Shown here: positions 2,429 through 7,612 of the stretch, piece after piece
How the letters are laid out: the number at the start of each line of letters is the position of its first letter
Position numbering within the stretch: the stretch's first letter is position 1
NCBI GenBank assembly: GCA_018266835.1
Contig: JAFDZP010000003.1
Coordinates: 290,824 to 354,823 of the forward strand
Reading direction: 5' to 3'
Source of the DNA: Bacteroidota bacterium
GTDB lineage: Bacteria > Bacteroidota > Ignavibacteria > Tepidaquicellales > Tepidaquicellaceae
DNA: 64,000 nucleotides
The notes under the pieces: generated by a model
Seen by the model: the letters and a program-made list of their open reading frames with translations, nothing else
Database searches by the model: none
What the model was told of the DNA's origin: nothing
Program-made: the position numbers and the translations under genes

Positions 2429-3064
2429 TTAATCCCCTAAATTTTTAAGTATTGCCATTATTAAAGAATCTACATTTTTATATTTTGTATCAACAATTTC
2501 TTGGGGATTTTTTGATCCTTTAAGTTCTAAATACTGAGCTATAACTTCATTCATAAATCTTCTATATGTAGGGTTATTCATTATTGATGAAAATGAAGTT
2601 TTACGATCAATATCATTATCGTTTGTCCAATCTTTCACCAAGTTTATAATGTCATTTGAAATCGTTTTTTCATTATTATAATCGTTTAAACTTTTGTTAA
2701 AAATTTTTAAGATAACATTTAATTCTTCTTTATCAGGCCCTTTATTTCCGGCAGATTCCAAGTCATGTTCTACATTGAAATACCAATTTATTAAATCTAT
2801 AAGAATTGTAATTTGCTTTACTTCAAATGTTAAATTCATTGTTTCGATATTAGTTTTTGAAAGAAGCATAAGGATTTCCGAATTAACAAATTCAGATATC
2901 TTTGTTATACTAGTATCTTTTTTCTGATTACTATCTAACTCGGAGAACAATTTTTGTTTTTTTGTTTCTGATGATGACTTTGATCCTCTATTACACCCCC
3001 AAAAAATTATAATGATAATTAATGCAAGAAAATATAATATGATAGCCCTATTACTTTTTAGCAT
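2429..3064 (-). CDS. Predicted lipoprotein of unknown function
   Basis: A 211-residue protein beginning with a Lys/Arg-containing n-region, a strongly hydrophobic stretch (LALIIIIIFWGC) and a lipobox Cys at about residue 24, followed by a Ser/Lys-rich linker. The remainder is helical and charged, without a motif I recognise. It is the first gene of the unit that continues with two barrels and the K+ channel, with only 1 nt before the next start. A periplasmic or outer-membrane lipoprotein working with the barrels is plausible but not shown. Confidence 0.65.
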   Translation of the reverse strand: MLKSNRAIILYFLALIIIIIFWGCNRGSKSSSETKKQKLFSELDSNQKKDTSITKISEFVNSEILMLLSKTNIETMNLTFEVKQITILIDLINWYFNVEHDLESAGNKGPDKEELNVILKIFNKSLNDYNNEKTISNDIINLVKDWTNDNDIDRKTSFSSIMNNPTYRRFMNEVIAQYLELKGSKNPQEIVDTKYKNVDSLIMAILKNLGD

Positions 3065-3487: not shown

Positions 3488-4960
3488 ATGGATTTTCGCA
3501 GCAATATTACTAAACTCTTACAACCCCTCACAAAAGAAGAAATTCACGGCCTTAAGAAATTTATTTCCTCCCCTTACTTTAATACAAATAAAAATATTTC
3601 AGATATTTTTGATGAACTGATAAAATTCCACCCGAAGTTTGAAAGCAAAAATCTTAATAAGGAATACATATACTCAAAGGTTTTTAAAGGTAAGCCGTTC
3701 AATGATTCAAACATGAGATGGATACTCAGCGAGATAACTCATCTTACTGAAAATTATTTTGCCCAGAAGAGATTTGACAACAATAAACTGCTTAAGGAAT
3801 TTTATATATCGGAAGAATTTGTAAACAGAATGGATGAAGGCAGATTAAAAAAATCTGTGAATGCAATGAAAGCGGAACTTAAGAATGCTCCTGACAAAGA
3901 CTATATGTATTTTTTTTATAAATATTTATGCCAGTCTAATGAACTGAATGAAGTATCTCTTTTTAAAAAAGACAAGAAGGCTAAGGAGATGGATTTATTT
4001 TTTGACATCTATCTGAAATCTTTTGTAAGCTATATAAATCATTTTATAATCGGAATAACTTTTGATTATCTCACAGCAACTTCTCTTGCATCTAAATATT
4101 TAAAGAACGGTATCAGCAAAAAAATAAATGAACTAGTAAAGCTTTTTAATTTCGAAAAGATTGCCGAATTTATGGAAGAAAAAAATGAGGACGCAGAGCA
4201 GATACGAGCTACTGTGAATATGCTAAATATGCATTTGTATCCTGATAACGATTCACTCTATGAAGATTTTAAAAATTACATTGTAAAAAATGAGAGGGGC
4301 ATTGGCACAGAAGAGCTTTCCGGATTTTATCACCAGCTTGTTTCGTATTTAAGGATAAAGATAATCAGGTCAAAAAATAAAAATTATTTTCGCAATGAAC
4401 TGTATATGATATCGGATTATCTTTTTAAAAATAATCTGCATTTCAATCAACGGACACAATCGTTAAATCAGGTTCTATATAAACTAACATTGTTAAATAC
4501 TCTTGAGCTGGAAAAAACAGAAGAAGCAGAAAAGTTTATAATGAAATACTCAGAAGAGATTTCTGAAAATCATAAGGATGACGCCAAAAATTTCAGCAAC
4601 GCATATCTGAGTTTTTATAAAAAGGATTTTGATAAGGCTTTGGACTTTATGAATGAGACTAAAGCAAATTTTTTCTTCACTGATCAAAAAATTCTTAAAA
4701 TTGCGTGCTTTACAGAAATGGCGTATAAAGATGAATGCGCTAACGAAGTAAAGTCGTTCAAAAAATATCTGAAGACGAGTAAATTCTTATCTGCCGAAAC
4801 AAAAGCAACATATAATAAATTTTTATTTTTCATTCCATATCTATGCCGCTCAGGCAAAGGGAAAAACTTCTTATCTAAAAAGAAATTATTGGAAAACTTA
4901 CAGGATGTGAATGCAATTTATCTTACCAGCTGGTTAAAGAGCAAAATAGACGGGCTGTAA
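3488..4960 (+). CDS. Large helical (TPR-like) cytosolic protein, copy 1 of a duplicated pair
   Basis: I chose the ATG at 3488 (MDFRSN) rather than a TTG 39 nt upstream because the paralogue at 6137 begins MDLREH at the same alignment point. The 490-residue product has no signal peptide. The N-terminal ~100 residues share the pattern LTKEEIHGLKKFISSPYFN...YIYSKVFKGKPFN with the paralogue. The rest is almost wholly helical, with a TPR-like hairpin near residues 370-420 (NFSNAYLSFYKKDFDKALDF). Proteins of this layout recur in Bacteroidota as hypotheticals. It converges on a small secreted-protein gene on the other strand. The function is unknown; a protein- or peptide-binding scaffold is possible. 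Confidence 0.75.
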   Translation: MDFRSNITKLLQPLTKEEIHGLKKFISSPYFNTNKNISDIFDELIKFHPKFESKNLNKEYIYSKVFKGKPFNDSNMRWILSEITHLTENYFAQKRFDNNKLLKEFYISEEFVNRMDEGRLKKSVNAMKAELKNAPDKDYMYFFYKYLCQSNELNEVSLFKKDKKAKEMDLFFDIYLKSFVSYINHFIIGITFDYLTATSLASKYLKNGISKKINELVKLFNFEKIAEFMEEKNEDAEQIRATVNMLNMHLYPDNDSLYEDFKNYIVKNERGIGTEELSGFYHQLVSYLRIKIIRSKNKNYFRNELYMISDYLFKNNLHFNQRTQSLNQVLYKLTLLNTLELEKTEEAEKFIMKYSEEISENHKDDAKNFSNAYLSFYKKDFDKALDFMNETKANFFFTDQKILKIACFTEMAYKDECANEVKSFKKYLKTSKFLSAETKATYNKFLFFIPYLCRSGKGKNFLSKKKLLENLQDVNAIYLTSWLKSKIDGL

Positions 4961-4974
4961 TAAATACAGCCCGT
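4950..4974. terminator. Bidirectional hairpin between convergent genes
   Basis: Perfect 10-bp stem ACGGGCTGTA (4950-4959) / TACAGCCCGT (4965-4974) with a 5-nt loop. It overlaps the TAA stop of the plus-strand gene and lies 8 nt beyond the stop of the minus-strand peptide gene. T-rich sequence follows on both strands but no long U-run, so efficiency is uncertain. Confidence 0.6.
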
Positions 4975-4982
4975 GTAGAGAT

Positions 4983-5198
4983 TTATTCTTCCGGATAAGT
5001 CATTATCAGATTTCCTTTATCATCATAAACAAAAATCCACGGAACACCATCTACATCAACTCTAACATAAGTATAATCTGATCGATTGGAAATTGCTTCA
5101 GAAGTGGTTTGAGAAGCATGAATTGTAGTGCAAAATAGGCCGGCAATGAAGAAGCTCAATGCAAGCAGACAGGCTAAGAAAAATGATTTGAGTTTCAT
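4983..5198 (-). CDS. Small secreted protein, copy 1
   Basis: A 71-residue product with a clear Sec signal peptide (hydrophobic FFLACLLALSFFIAGLF, probable cleavage after IHA) leaving about 43 residues. The mature part contains YTYVRVDVDGVPWIFVYDDK and ends in NLIMTYPEE. It is a clear paralogue of the 79-residue protein at 5704-5943, which shares YTY, DG, IFV, the D(E/D)xGxLI block and TYPE. An SD-like AAGGAGA (read on the minus strand) precedes the ATG. It converges on the helical-protein gene at 3488. I know of no characterised homologue; it could be a secreted signal, inhibitor or small structural protein. Confidence 0.7.
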   Translation of the reverse strand: MKLKSFFLACLLALSFFIAGLFCTTIHASQTTSEAISNRSDYTYVRVDVDGVPWIFVYDDKGNLIMTYPEE

Positions 5199-5703
5199 TT
5201 TTATCTCCTTAGGGGTTTGATTTTAACACAAGCAAAATGCCTGTGAAAATCAGCCTGCCCAGCTCGCCATCGATATTAATATAAAGTTAAATTAGTTTTA
5301 TAATTCTCCTATTAAATTAGCAAAATAATTGAAATGTTAGCTTTATAAAAAAAGCATAATATTCCAAACAATTAAAATTACAAAAGTAATTTTAACTTTG
5401 ATTTTAAGAAAACTATATATTGTGATTAAAAAAAGAGAAAAAAAAATACTCCATCCGAAAAAGTATTAAAAAGATGGAGTATTTTAACGAGGTGAGATTT
5501 TAGCTATGAGAAACTTGTTTGGTAAACGGGAGAAAAAATTCTAGGGGGGCTATCATTTACTTCTCCCAAATTTGAACTTAAAAGTCTAATGAACCTTTAT
5601 AGTTCAAAACCTCCCCCGAAAAAACTAAAAAAAACGAGGGAGCGTTTTGATTCACCATTATTAATTCAATTAATTAAAACAATTTTTAAAGAACATTAAA
5701 AAA
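5199..5703. other. Hairpin-rich intergenic region between the two small secreted-protein genes
   Basis: 505 bases containing four successive inverted repeats: 5443-5455/5473-5485 (13 bp), 5528-5534/5561-5567 (GGGAGAA/TTCTCCC), 5571-5578/5601-5608 (TTTGAACT/AGTTCAAA) and 5611-5618/5635-5642 (8 bp, one mismatch). The first and last both have A-rich loops. A plus-strand 12-codon ORF (5506-5544, MRNLFGKREKKF), preceded by GAGGTGAG, overlaps the second repeat. The block could be the 3' end of the 5704-5943 transcript, tandem terminators, or a small structured RNA. No larger ORF is supported. Confidence 0.45.
5433..5485 (-). terminator. Strong intrinsic terminator for the minus-strand peptide transcript
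   Basis: A perfect 13-bp stem (AAAATACTCCATC / GATGGAGTATTTT, 5443-5455 and 5473-5485). Read on the minus strand, the stem is followed by a T-tract from the A-run at 5433-5446. It lies about 220 nt downstream of the stop of the 5704-5943 gene, implying a long 3' untranslated region. Confidence 0.65.
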
Positions 5704-5943
5704 CTAGTTACCTCCGTGGTGTCCACCACAGGATTCAGGGTAAGTATCAATCAATTTTCCGGCTTCATCAAAAACGAAAATAAATAAAACTCCATCAATC
5801 CAAATCTTTTCATATGTATATTCTTCACCGGAAGTTACTTCTATAGATACCGGTTCAGCTGCAATAGCGTTAACCGAAATAGGAGCTAAAAATCCTATTA
5901 AAAAACAAATTATTAAAAAACCTTTTAAAAATACTTTTCTCAT
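5704..5943 (-). CDS. Small secreted protein, copy 2, with Cys/Gly/His tail
   Basis: A 79-residue product with a signal peptide (FLIICFLIGFLAPISVNA) and about 50 mature residues. The core YTYEKIWIDGVLFIFVFDEA and DTYPE match the 71-residue protein at 4983-5198. Unlike that copy it has a C-terminal extension, CGGHHGGN, with one Cys and two adjacent His, which could bind metal or be a processed tail. It diverges from the helical-protein gene at 6137. Transcription probably runs through the hairpin cluster downstream. Function unknown. Confidence 0.7.
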   Translation of the reverse strand: MRKVFLKGFLIICFLIGFLAPISVNAIAAEPVSIEVTSGEEYTYEKIWIDGVLFIFVFDEAGKLIDTYPESCGGHHGGN

Positions 5944-6136
5944 AAGTATAGGACTAAAATTTACTACTACTAAAATCTATTACAAATATTATGATTCTAT
6001 TATTAATATGCAAAGAATAATTTTTAGTATTTCCGCATTATTTAAAAGTCTACACGAAGAATATTCTTTATTTTTGGTTATTTTATTGATATTTTTAGTG
6101 TAATATTTAAGCAATTTTCCGCTAACTTCAGCTAAT

Positions 6137-7612
6137 ATGGATTTAAGAGAGCATAACGTAATACTTATATTAAAATCTTTTTCACCGGTAGAAGTAAGAA
6201 GTTTTAAAAACTTTATTATTTCACCTATATATAATAATCTGAAAAAGATAAATCAATTATACAATGTAATTAAAAAGTTTGCCCCTAATTACAATGATGA
6301 AAGAATAAATACCCTCTATTTATTTGAATCTTTATACGAAGGTAAAAATTATAACCATTCAACAATTACAAATTTGATTTCTAAAATGCAAAAGCTCCTG
6401 GAAGAGTTTTTAATTTTTACCAATATTCATAAAACTCCGATTAAAAAAGACGAATTTCTATTAAAAGAATATTTCGGAAGGAACCTAAAATCACTTTCCT
6501 TTAAAAATATATTTAATCTGAAAGAGCCGGCTACAAATAAAGAAGATATAGATTCCGATTTCTTTCTTCGAAGCTTTACTCATGATGCATACAAGGTTAA
6601 TTATATTGTTAACTATGGAATGGATAATCAAAAAAAATCTACCCAGTTTCTTTCTGAAGGATTATTAAACGTCAATGTCAATTTTATAAATTACTTTGTA
6701 ATGGAGCTAATGTCTAATTATATTAATTCCATAATTTCCCTCTCTGCCAACGATACACATGATATAAAAATAAAACTTGAAAAAATTCTATCAGATTTAA
6801 ACATTGATAAACTTATAAAAAATGTAGAACCCTATAATCACTATACCTATATTATTAACCTGTACCTGAAACTTGTTCAGGCATTCTCAAATCTGAAAAA
6901 TACAGATAACTATTTTATATACAAAAAAGAACTTTTTAAAAGCAAAGATAAGCTAAATAAAAACGAACTGTATTTTCATTACTCAAAATTAATTGCATAC
7001 TGTTCATTACAAAAAGGAAAAACCGGCAATACCGATTTTCAAAAAGAAATTTTTGAAATTTGTGAAATAGTTCTGGAAAACGAATATTACATCAATTTTT
7101 CATCTAAGTTTTTGCCAATCAATCTGTTTAAAATTATAATCTCAGCTTCAATTGCACTTGAAAAATTTGACTGGCTTGAAAATTTTCTCAACACATATTG
7201 TAAAAAAGTAAACCCGAGACTTCAAAAAGATGCAGAGCGTTATGGCTATGCATCACTTAACTTTGCAACTGAAAATTTCAATAACTGTTTAAATCTACTG
7301 AATCAAATTCGTGATAATGCTTTTCTTCTTGAAATCCGCGGAATGAAGCTCATGATATTTTATAATCTTGCATATTATAATGAGGGACTGAACGACCTGA
7401 AATCTTTTCAGAAATTTATAAAAATAAACAAATCTCTTACCCAGCAAAGAAGGCAAACATTAATCAATTTTTTAACTTATATGGATAAGCTATTTTTGTA
7501 TAAGATAGCGGACAGAAAATCAGAAATAGGATATTACCGGAAAAAACTGACTGTCGAAGAAAACTGTCTATATAAAGACTGGCTTGTAAAAACCTATCAA
7601 AAAATAAAATAA
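6137..7612 (+). CDS. Large helical (TPR-like) cytosolic protein, copy 2 of a duplicated pair
   Basis: A 491-residue product without signal peptide, paralogous to the protein at 3488 over its length. Shared features include an N-terminal SPVEVRSFKNFIISPIYNN block, a LYLFESLYEGKNYNHSTI block and a C-terminal helical region (YGYASLNFATENFNNCLNLL, then an LKSFQKFIKINKSL-type motif matching VKSFKKYLKTSKFL in copy 1). It is divergent from the adjacent secreted-protein gene, 193 nt away. The DUF1844 gene follows after 19 nt. Function unknown; repeated pairing with a small secreted protein suggests a functional link. Confidence 0.75.
   Translation: MDLREHNVILILKSFSPVEVRSFKNFIISPIYNNLKKINQLYNVIKKFAPNYNDERINTLYLFESLYEGKNYNHSTITNLISKMQKLLEEFLIFTNIHKTPIKKDEFLLKEYFGRNLKSLSFKNIFNLKEPATNKEDIDSDFFLRSFTHDAYKVNYIVNYGMDNQKKSTQFLSEGLLNVNVNFINYFVMELMSNYINSIISLSANDTHDIKIKLEKILSDLNIDKLIKNVEPYNHYTYIINLYLKLVQAFSNLKNTDNYFIYKKELFKSKDKLNKNELYFHYSKLIAYCSLQKGKTGNTDFQKEIFEICEIVLENEYYINFSSKFLPINLFKIIISASIALEKFDWLENFLNTYCKKVNPRLQKDAERYGYASLNFATENFNNCLNLLNQIRDNAFLLEIRGMKLMIFYNLAYYNEGLNDLKSFQKFIKINKSLTQQRRQTLINFLTYMDKLFLYKIADRKSEIGYYRKKLTVEENCLYKDWLVKTYQKIK

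Follow-up and report, generated by a model that had tools for sequence, protein, structure and literature searches.

What two large helical proteins and two small exported proteins have to do with one another is the question raised by the locus at positions 3488-7612 of a 64,000-nucleotide stretch (the window) of contig JAFDZP010000003.1 from a bacterium of the Bacteroidota. An open reading frame (ORF) check confirmed all four genes at the positions and on the strands given in the preliminary description: the large proteins L1 (3488-4960, plus strand, 490 amino acids) and L2 (6137-7612, plus strand, 491 amino acids), and the small proteins s1 (4983-5198, minus strand, 71 amino acids) and s2 (5704-5943, minus strand, 79 amino acids). 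L1 and L2 are paralogues, as had been claimed, with 23% identity over 450 residues (E 1e-33), and so are s1 and s2, with 36% identity over 70 residues (E 1e-14). A hydrophobicity heuristic predicts a Sec-type signal at the N-terminus of both small proteins, in agreement with the export proposed for them. The two copies of each family that had been described are real, but L1 and L2 belong to a family, here called L, with 44 full-length genes in this genome, and a third s gene lies beside another L gene (L047). It seems probable that L is an undescribed family of cytosolic one-component regulators, combining a helix-turn-helix (HTH) domain with a tetratricopeptide repeat (TPR)-like part, each of which controls the gene that faces it, in most cases one for an exported protein.

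The genome containing the window (G000; 4.0 Mb in 8 contigs) gives 45 matches to L2, 44 of them full length (467-500 amino acids) after locus extraction, and a genome from another family of the same order (G029) carries 49 full-length copies. Copy numbers outside these two and a genus-mate (G001) are lower bounds. The 44 paralogues share 17-23% identity with L2, yet they can be aligned from end to end, and the N-terminal block K.L...E.K.F..F..SPYFN is conserved across the family. Neither the L nor the s proteins are covered by a family in Pfam, NCBIfam or PADLOC, weak matches of s1 to RHS_repeat and COPI (E 0.02-0.06) being taken as chance, and a description of the L family was not found in the open-access literature. 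Broken copies suggest turnover within the family: at locus L017 of the window's genome an 80-residue N-terminal fragment lies just upstream of a full copy (6110-7582), and in the genus-mate one copy (L205:7503-8315) is truncated to 270 residues.

The genes for s2 and L2 are divergent across a shared region of 193 bp (5944-6136), predicted to be a bidirectional promoter and operator, and this arrangement is the rule of the whole L family, not of the s pairs alone. Genes in all loci were called with a home-made caller and signal peptides by a heuristic, and the neighbouring non-L, non-secreted genes of the same loci served as controls for layout. Among operon-head L genes, meaning those other than the second gene of an L-L tandem, 33 of 38 in the window's genome have a divergent upstream neighbour, compared with 38 of 187 controls (P 8e-15), most gaps between L and partner being 113-257 bp. 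The corresponding fractions in G029 are 43/44 and 32/139 (P 4e-20). Across the wider Bacteroidota they are 65/75 and 70/231 (P 4e-18, which overstates independence because some of the loci are close relatives); this set of 80 loci from named metagenome-assembled genomes and isolates (Saprospiraceae, Chitinophagales, Lewinella, Ignavibacteria and others) was gathered with an L subfamily alignment and is biased to that extent. L genes and their partners are also inherited together. Between the window's genome and the genus-mate there are 20 orthologous L pairs, 14 of which have an identical upstream neighbour, and those without a kept neighbour are mostly second genes of tandems or artefacts of gene calling. 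In tandem L-L pairs, which include L011, L048, L053, L056 and L061 in the window's genome and which often overlap or lie a few base pairs apart, the first L alone has a divergent partner.

What stands out among the partners is this layout together with a C-terminal tail for the type IX secretion system (T9SS), not signal peptides alone. The T9SS type A sorting domain (TIGR04183) is found at the C-terminus of 71 of the 79 large partners, and it is enriched among L partners relative to other divergent neighbours both in the window's genome (14/33 vs 7/57, P 0.002) and in G029 (14/43 vs 2/44, P 0.0008). Given divergence, on the other hand, an excess of signal-bearing partners is not significant within either genome (P 0.23 and P 0.16, respectively). 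Since the window's genome encodes at least 150 proteins with this sorting domain, only a minority of them face an L. Some operons divergent from L open with a gene whose product stays in the cell (small ribbon-helix-helix (RHH)-like proteins, fibronectin type III (FN3)-like proteins and others); the product of the next gene is then exported in 5 of 12 cases in the window's genome and 13 of 19 in G029. A handful of partners belong to metabolism, namely sdh cytochrome b, a 4Fe-4S protein, GNAT and GDSL. The RHH-like proteins, of 52-69 residues with the motif KGYRLKPETHK, are repeatedly encoded at the head of the L-divergent operon with a secreted protein usually next (L178, L184, L190, L193 and L196 in G029; L012 in the window's genome). 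Four small FN3-like partners in G029 (L176, L183, L185 and L195) belong to a single L subclade; they are cytosolic, an unusual setting for this domain.

For the classes of small partner, the class follows the L subclade. On a tree of the L proteins of the three genomes the small-peptide label requires 3 changes, compared with 5.8 in shuffles (0/300 shuffles as low), and FN3-like and RHH-like partners also cluster (1/300 and 8/300 as low), although the orthologues of the two congeneric genomes are near-copies that inflate this clustering. All L genes facing a small peptide, as well as L1, fall with L2 in one clade of nine rows with an SH-aLRT support of 100. The s family itself occurs almost only beside L genes. 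The window's genome has three copies only, and of 99 relatives searched with a profile 33 carry the family, without exception members of the order's families f1 and f2; it was not detected in other families of the class among the relatives searched. Of 30 s loci in these relatives, 27 have a divergent L at 148-269 bp, two lie at a contig end and one is without an L. The preliminary description had regarded the pairing as coincidental should the two families rarely be neighbours; they are paired in 27 of 28 testable loci, and the pairing is conserved in the order. The mature exported peptide is 45-50 residues long, with a conserved core, Y..V..DG..W..VYD.DG..I..YPE, that reaches the C-terminus. 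In s2 the core YEKIWIDGVLFIFVFDEAGKLIDTYPE is followed by the tail SCGGHHGGN. This tail had been described as a gain of this one copy, but it is not recent, because the s2 orthologue of the genus-mate carries a Cys/Gly/His tail too (ESCGPHGGG).

The AlphaFold2 model of L2, built from a 44-row alignment, is wholly helical with a mean predicted local distance difference test (pLDDT) score of 92, and the N-terminal domain modelled alone reaches the same value. Foldseek searches of the PDB with the L models gave nothing below E 0.001 (E 2.4 for the N-terminal domain), and a fold search of BFVD gave no significant match; the likenesses that follow come from re-alignment with VIA-align. For residues 130-491, Rap comes first (4gyo_B, Z 15.4, root-mean-square deviation (rmsd) 5.7 over 292 aligned residues), followed by RapI (14.7) and NprR (13.8), with LGN (13.7) and AimR (12.2) lower. 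The top 12 rows for the N-terminal domain are all DNA-binding domains, with weak scores throughout (Z 5.3-4.2). CovR and CadC lead at Z 5.3, with 73 residues aligned at an rmsd of 3.2-3.7, and the rows below them include response regulators, SaeR, sigma region 4 and ToxR. From these alignments residues ~1-99 would appear to form an OmpR/ToxR-like HTH domain.

Identity between orthologues (the 20 pairs above) was also compared with identity between paralogues. Conservation restricted to orthologues has two peaks in L2, one of which, residues 74-83 (HSTITNLISK; 6356-6385, plus strand), ranks third of 482 windows and is better kept between orthologues than the whole protein (paired test, P 2.6e-4), for a helix that was suspected beforehand and an exact window that was picked after viewing the profile. 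All ten residues are identical in the L2 orthologue of the genus-mate and differ in the paralogues. If the N-terminal domain is HTH-like, the fold alignment puts this segment at the start of the putative DNA-recognition helix, and such specificity to orthologues would follow if every paralogue recognised a DNA site of its own. The second peak, residues 193-202 (6713-6742), lies in the TPR-like part and is a candidate ligand-specificity site. Of 63 divergent regions in other Bacteroidota, 8 contain the palindrome ATTGANNNTCAAT, where 0.03 would be expected, at a distance of 31-88 bp ahead of the L start; the eight loci (L155, L158, L159, L105, L107, L112, L162 and L151) make up four independent locus groups. 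The L155, L158 and L159 regions also have in common an inverted repeat, GTACA...TGTAC. An expectation-maximisation motif search of the intergenic regions returned AT-rich and promoter-like patterns only.

That L proteins bind DNA, that they regulate and in which direction, and that they respond to a ligand are inferences. In the proposed mechanism the OmpR/ToxR-like domain (~1-99) would be followed by a TPR-like superhelical sensor (~100-491), and each L, sitting at a promoter region common to it and its divergent neighbour, would control that neighbour through an operator of its own and probably itself as well. The neighbour, most often an exported protein, is T9SS cargo in many loci, an s1/s2-type peptide in one L subclade, or an operon in which a small gene for a cytosolic protein precedes a gene for an exported one. 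The sensor would recognise a ligand, which might be a peptide or else the partner's precursor before export. Several observations weigh against regulation of this kind. The fold matches of the N-terminal domain are weak (Z ~5; Foldseek E 2.4) and the strands of a wing are not predicted, nor was a DNA-binding family recognised by sequence in Pfam, in other libraries or among PDB sequences searched with the profile of this domain. Unrelated TPR proteins score like Rap and NprR in the remainder, as LGN does; since helical repeats reach Z 13 by common arrangement alone, the likeness is suggestive but no proof. Some partners resemble housekeeping genes (those for sdh cytochrome b, the 4Fe-4S protein and GNAT), and the L tree shows no clustering of large secreted partners taken as a class (102/300 shuffles as low). 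No palindrome common to the intergenic regions turned up in the window's genome or in G029, which fits individual operators but is no evidence for them, and inverted repeats kept between the window's genome and the genus-mate are few (2/25), too few to judge.

Within the window the order is L1> <s1 <s2 L2>, and among the s and L genes only s2 and L2 have the standard divergent layout, L1 and s1 being convergent with 22 bp between them. The preliminary description took the two pairs to have been duplicated as a unit. The gene order does not support this, as tandem duplication of one unit would not give one convergent and one divergent pair, and the genus-mate lends it no support either. There the s2-L2 pair is retained with a gap of 190 bp, and L1 and s1 are convergent as in the window, but the s1 orthologue also faces a further L, the copy truncated to 270 residues, which is divergent from it at 195 bp. 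That L, together with a secreted protein and a large ORF, occupies an interval of ~5.7 kb between s1 and s2; the corresponding 505 bp of the window (5199-5703) have no detectable remnant of it. Upstream of L1, the divergent neighbour in the window is a predicted lipoprotein of 211 amino acids (2429-3064, minus strand) at a gap of 423 bp, and in the genus-mate it is a different gene. The truncated L was considered as the true partner of s1 and dropped, as it is nearest to a subclade other than that of the s1/s2-type partners, whereas L1 sits in the small-peptide subclade. Which L is cognate to s1 is uncertain.

The preliminary description likened the locus to RRNPP peptide signalling, in which case the s proteins would be pro-peptides: their product would re-enter the cell and occupy the TPR groove of the paired L, and that L would then switch its target genes. 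Part of this likeness stands. RRNPP systems are defined by a Sec-exported propeptide of 10-100 residues and a TPR-containing receptor of 250-500 residues encoded -60 to 400 bp apart (PMC10075063), and the s proteins (71 and 79 residues), the L proteins (490 and 491 residues) and their spacing (193 bp, and 148-269 bp in relatives) all fall within these ranges. The fold is nearest to Rap and NprR, with AimR lower, and s genes are found almost exclusively beside L and, in the three-genome tree, beside one L subclade. The likeness fails, however, in that the s core is conserved up to the C-terminus, unlike a short and variable C-terminal pheromone, that three s genes stand against 44 L genes, and that most L proteins face large T9SS cargo or other genes in place of pro-peptides. 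Sequence homology to RRNPP receptors was not found either: L2 has no significant TPR profile match and other L members have weak ones only, and a profile search of PDB sequences with L returned mostly designed TPRs and SRP72 and no RRNPP entry. With no importer or evidence of re-import either, signalling of the RRNPP type appears unlikely. The known families (Rap, NprR, PlcR and AimR, with Phr, NprX and AimP) do resemble L in the size of the superhelix, which in L is a predicted TPR-like one, in having a domain before it, in occurring in several copies per genome and, for one L subclade, in the small protein next door, which in L loci is predicted to be Sec-exported. They differ in phylum, in the prevalence of large T9SS cargo opposite L, in the conserved s core and in the N-terminal domain, which is OmpR/ToxR-like in L. 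NprR and PlcR carry an Xre-type HTH.

That most partners are exported and tend to be kept would also suit a role of L proteins as cytosolic chaperones or pilots, each dedicated to its own partner and holding it until Sec or T9SS export, the more so as TPR-like proteins often bind extended chains. Chaperones are usually encoded in an operon with their client, though, and here the layout is divergent; cytosolic proteins are among the partners, large secreted partners do not track the L clade, and the fold matches of the N-terminal domain are DNA-binding domains, so that a chaperone role seems rather improbable. An effector/immunity alternative had also been raised. A toxin/immunity or effector/immunity cassette that spreads would account for the proximity of a small exported protein and a cytosolic one, for several copies per genome and for decayed L copies, but it fits less well: there is no PADLOC match up to E 1, L genes as a rule have no s, the window has kept s1 while lacking the L that faces its orthologue in the genus-mate, and T9SS cargo and sdh genes would be odd partners for immunity proteins. 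Such a cassette is very improbable. As about one third of genes in the sampled loci have a signal-like start, s and L might lie together by coincidence, given how many secreted proteins the genome encodes; this can hardly be reconciled with divergence in 43/44 and 65/75 of L genes, with pairing of s in 27/28 loci from separate genera, or with the retention of partners by orthologues.

Other known regulators share some features with L. The SARP/AfsR-type and MalT-type regulators combine, as L is predicted to, a DNA-binding domain with a helical repeat sensor, and the fold matches include domain III of MalT as well as a STAND protein that bears TPRs, but L has no ATPase domain or predicted wing strands and forms up to ~50 paralogues each facing its own partner. 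Neither Trans_reg_C nor BTAD was matched by Pfam in L1 or L2 or appears among the matches of the 44 members. Local regulators of the LysR type are also encoded back-to-back with the gene that they control; their fold is unrelated, and exported cargo is the dominant partner type for L. PorX/PorY/SigP too concerns T9SS expression in Bacteroidota, where a two-component system and a sigma factor exert global control of T9SS genes; this is control of the machinery, unlike one local regulator per cargo gene.

Little seems to have been described of how individual surface and secreted proteins are controlled in T9SS-rich Bacteroidota. A family with one regulator per cargo would, if real, provide a handle on that control and, in each genome, a first hint of function for dozens of genes that lack annotation. 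A bolder version, possible but doubtful at present, is that L is a superfamily sensing peptides or precursors and expanded to ~50 copies per genome. Each cytosolic HTH-TPR protein would then read its exported partner, be it a small peptide or T9SS cargo, and so tie the transcription of individual surface proteins to their own export or to the signals of neighbours. Were that the case, these bacteria may possess a peptide-sensing system outside the Firmicutes.

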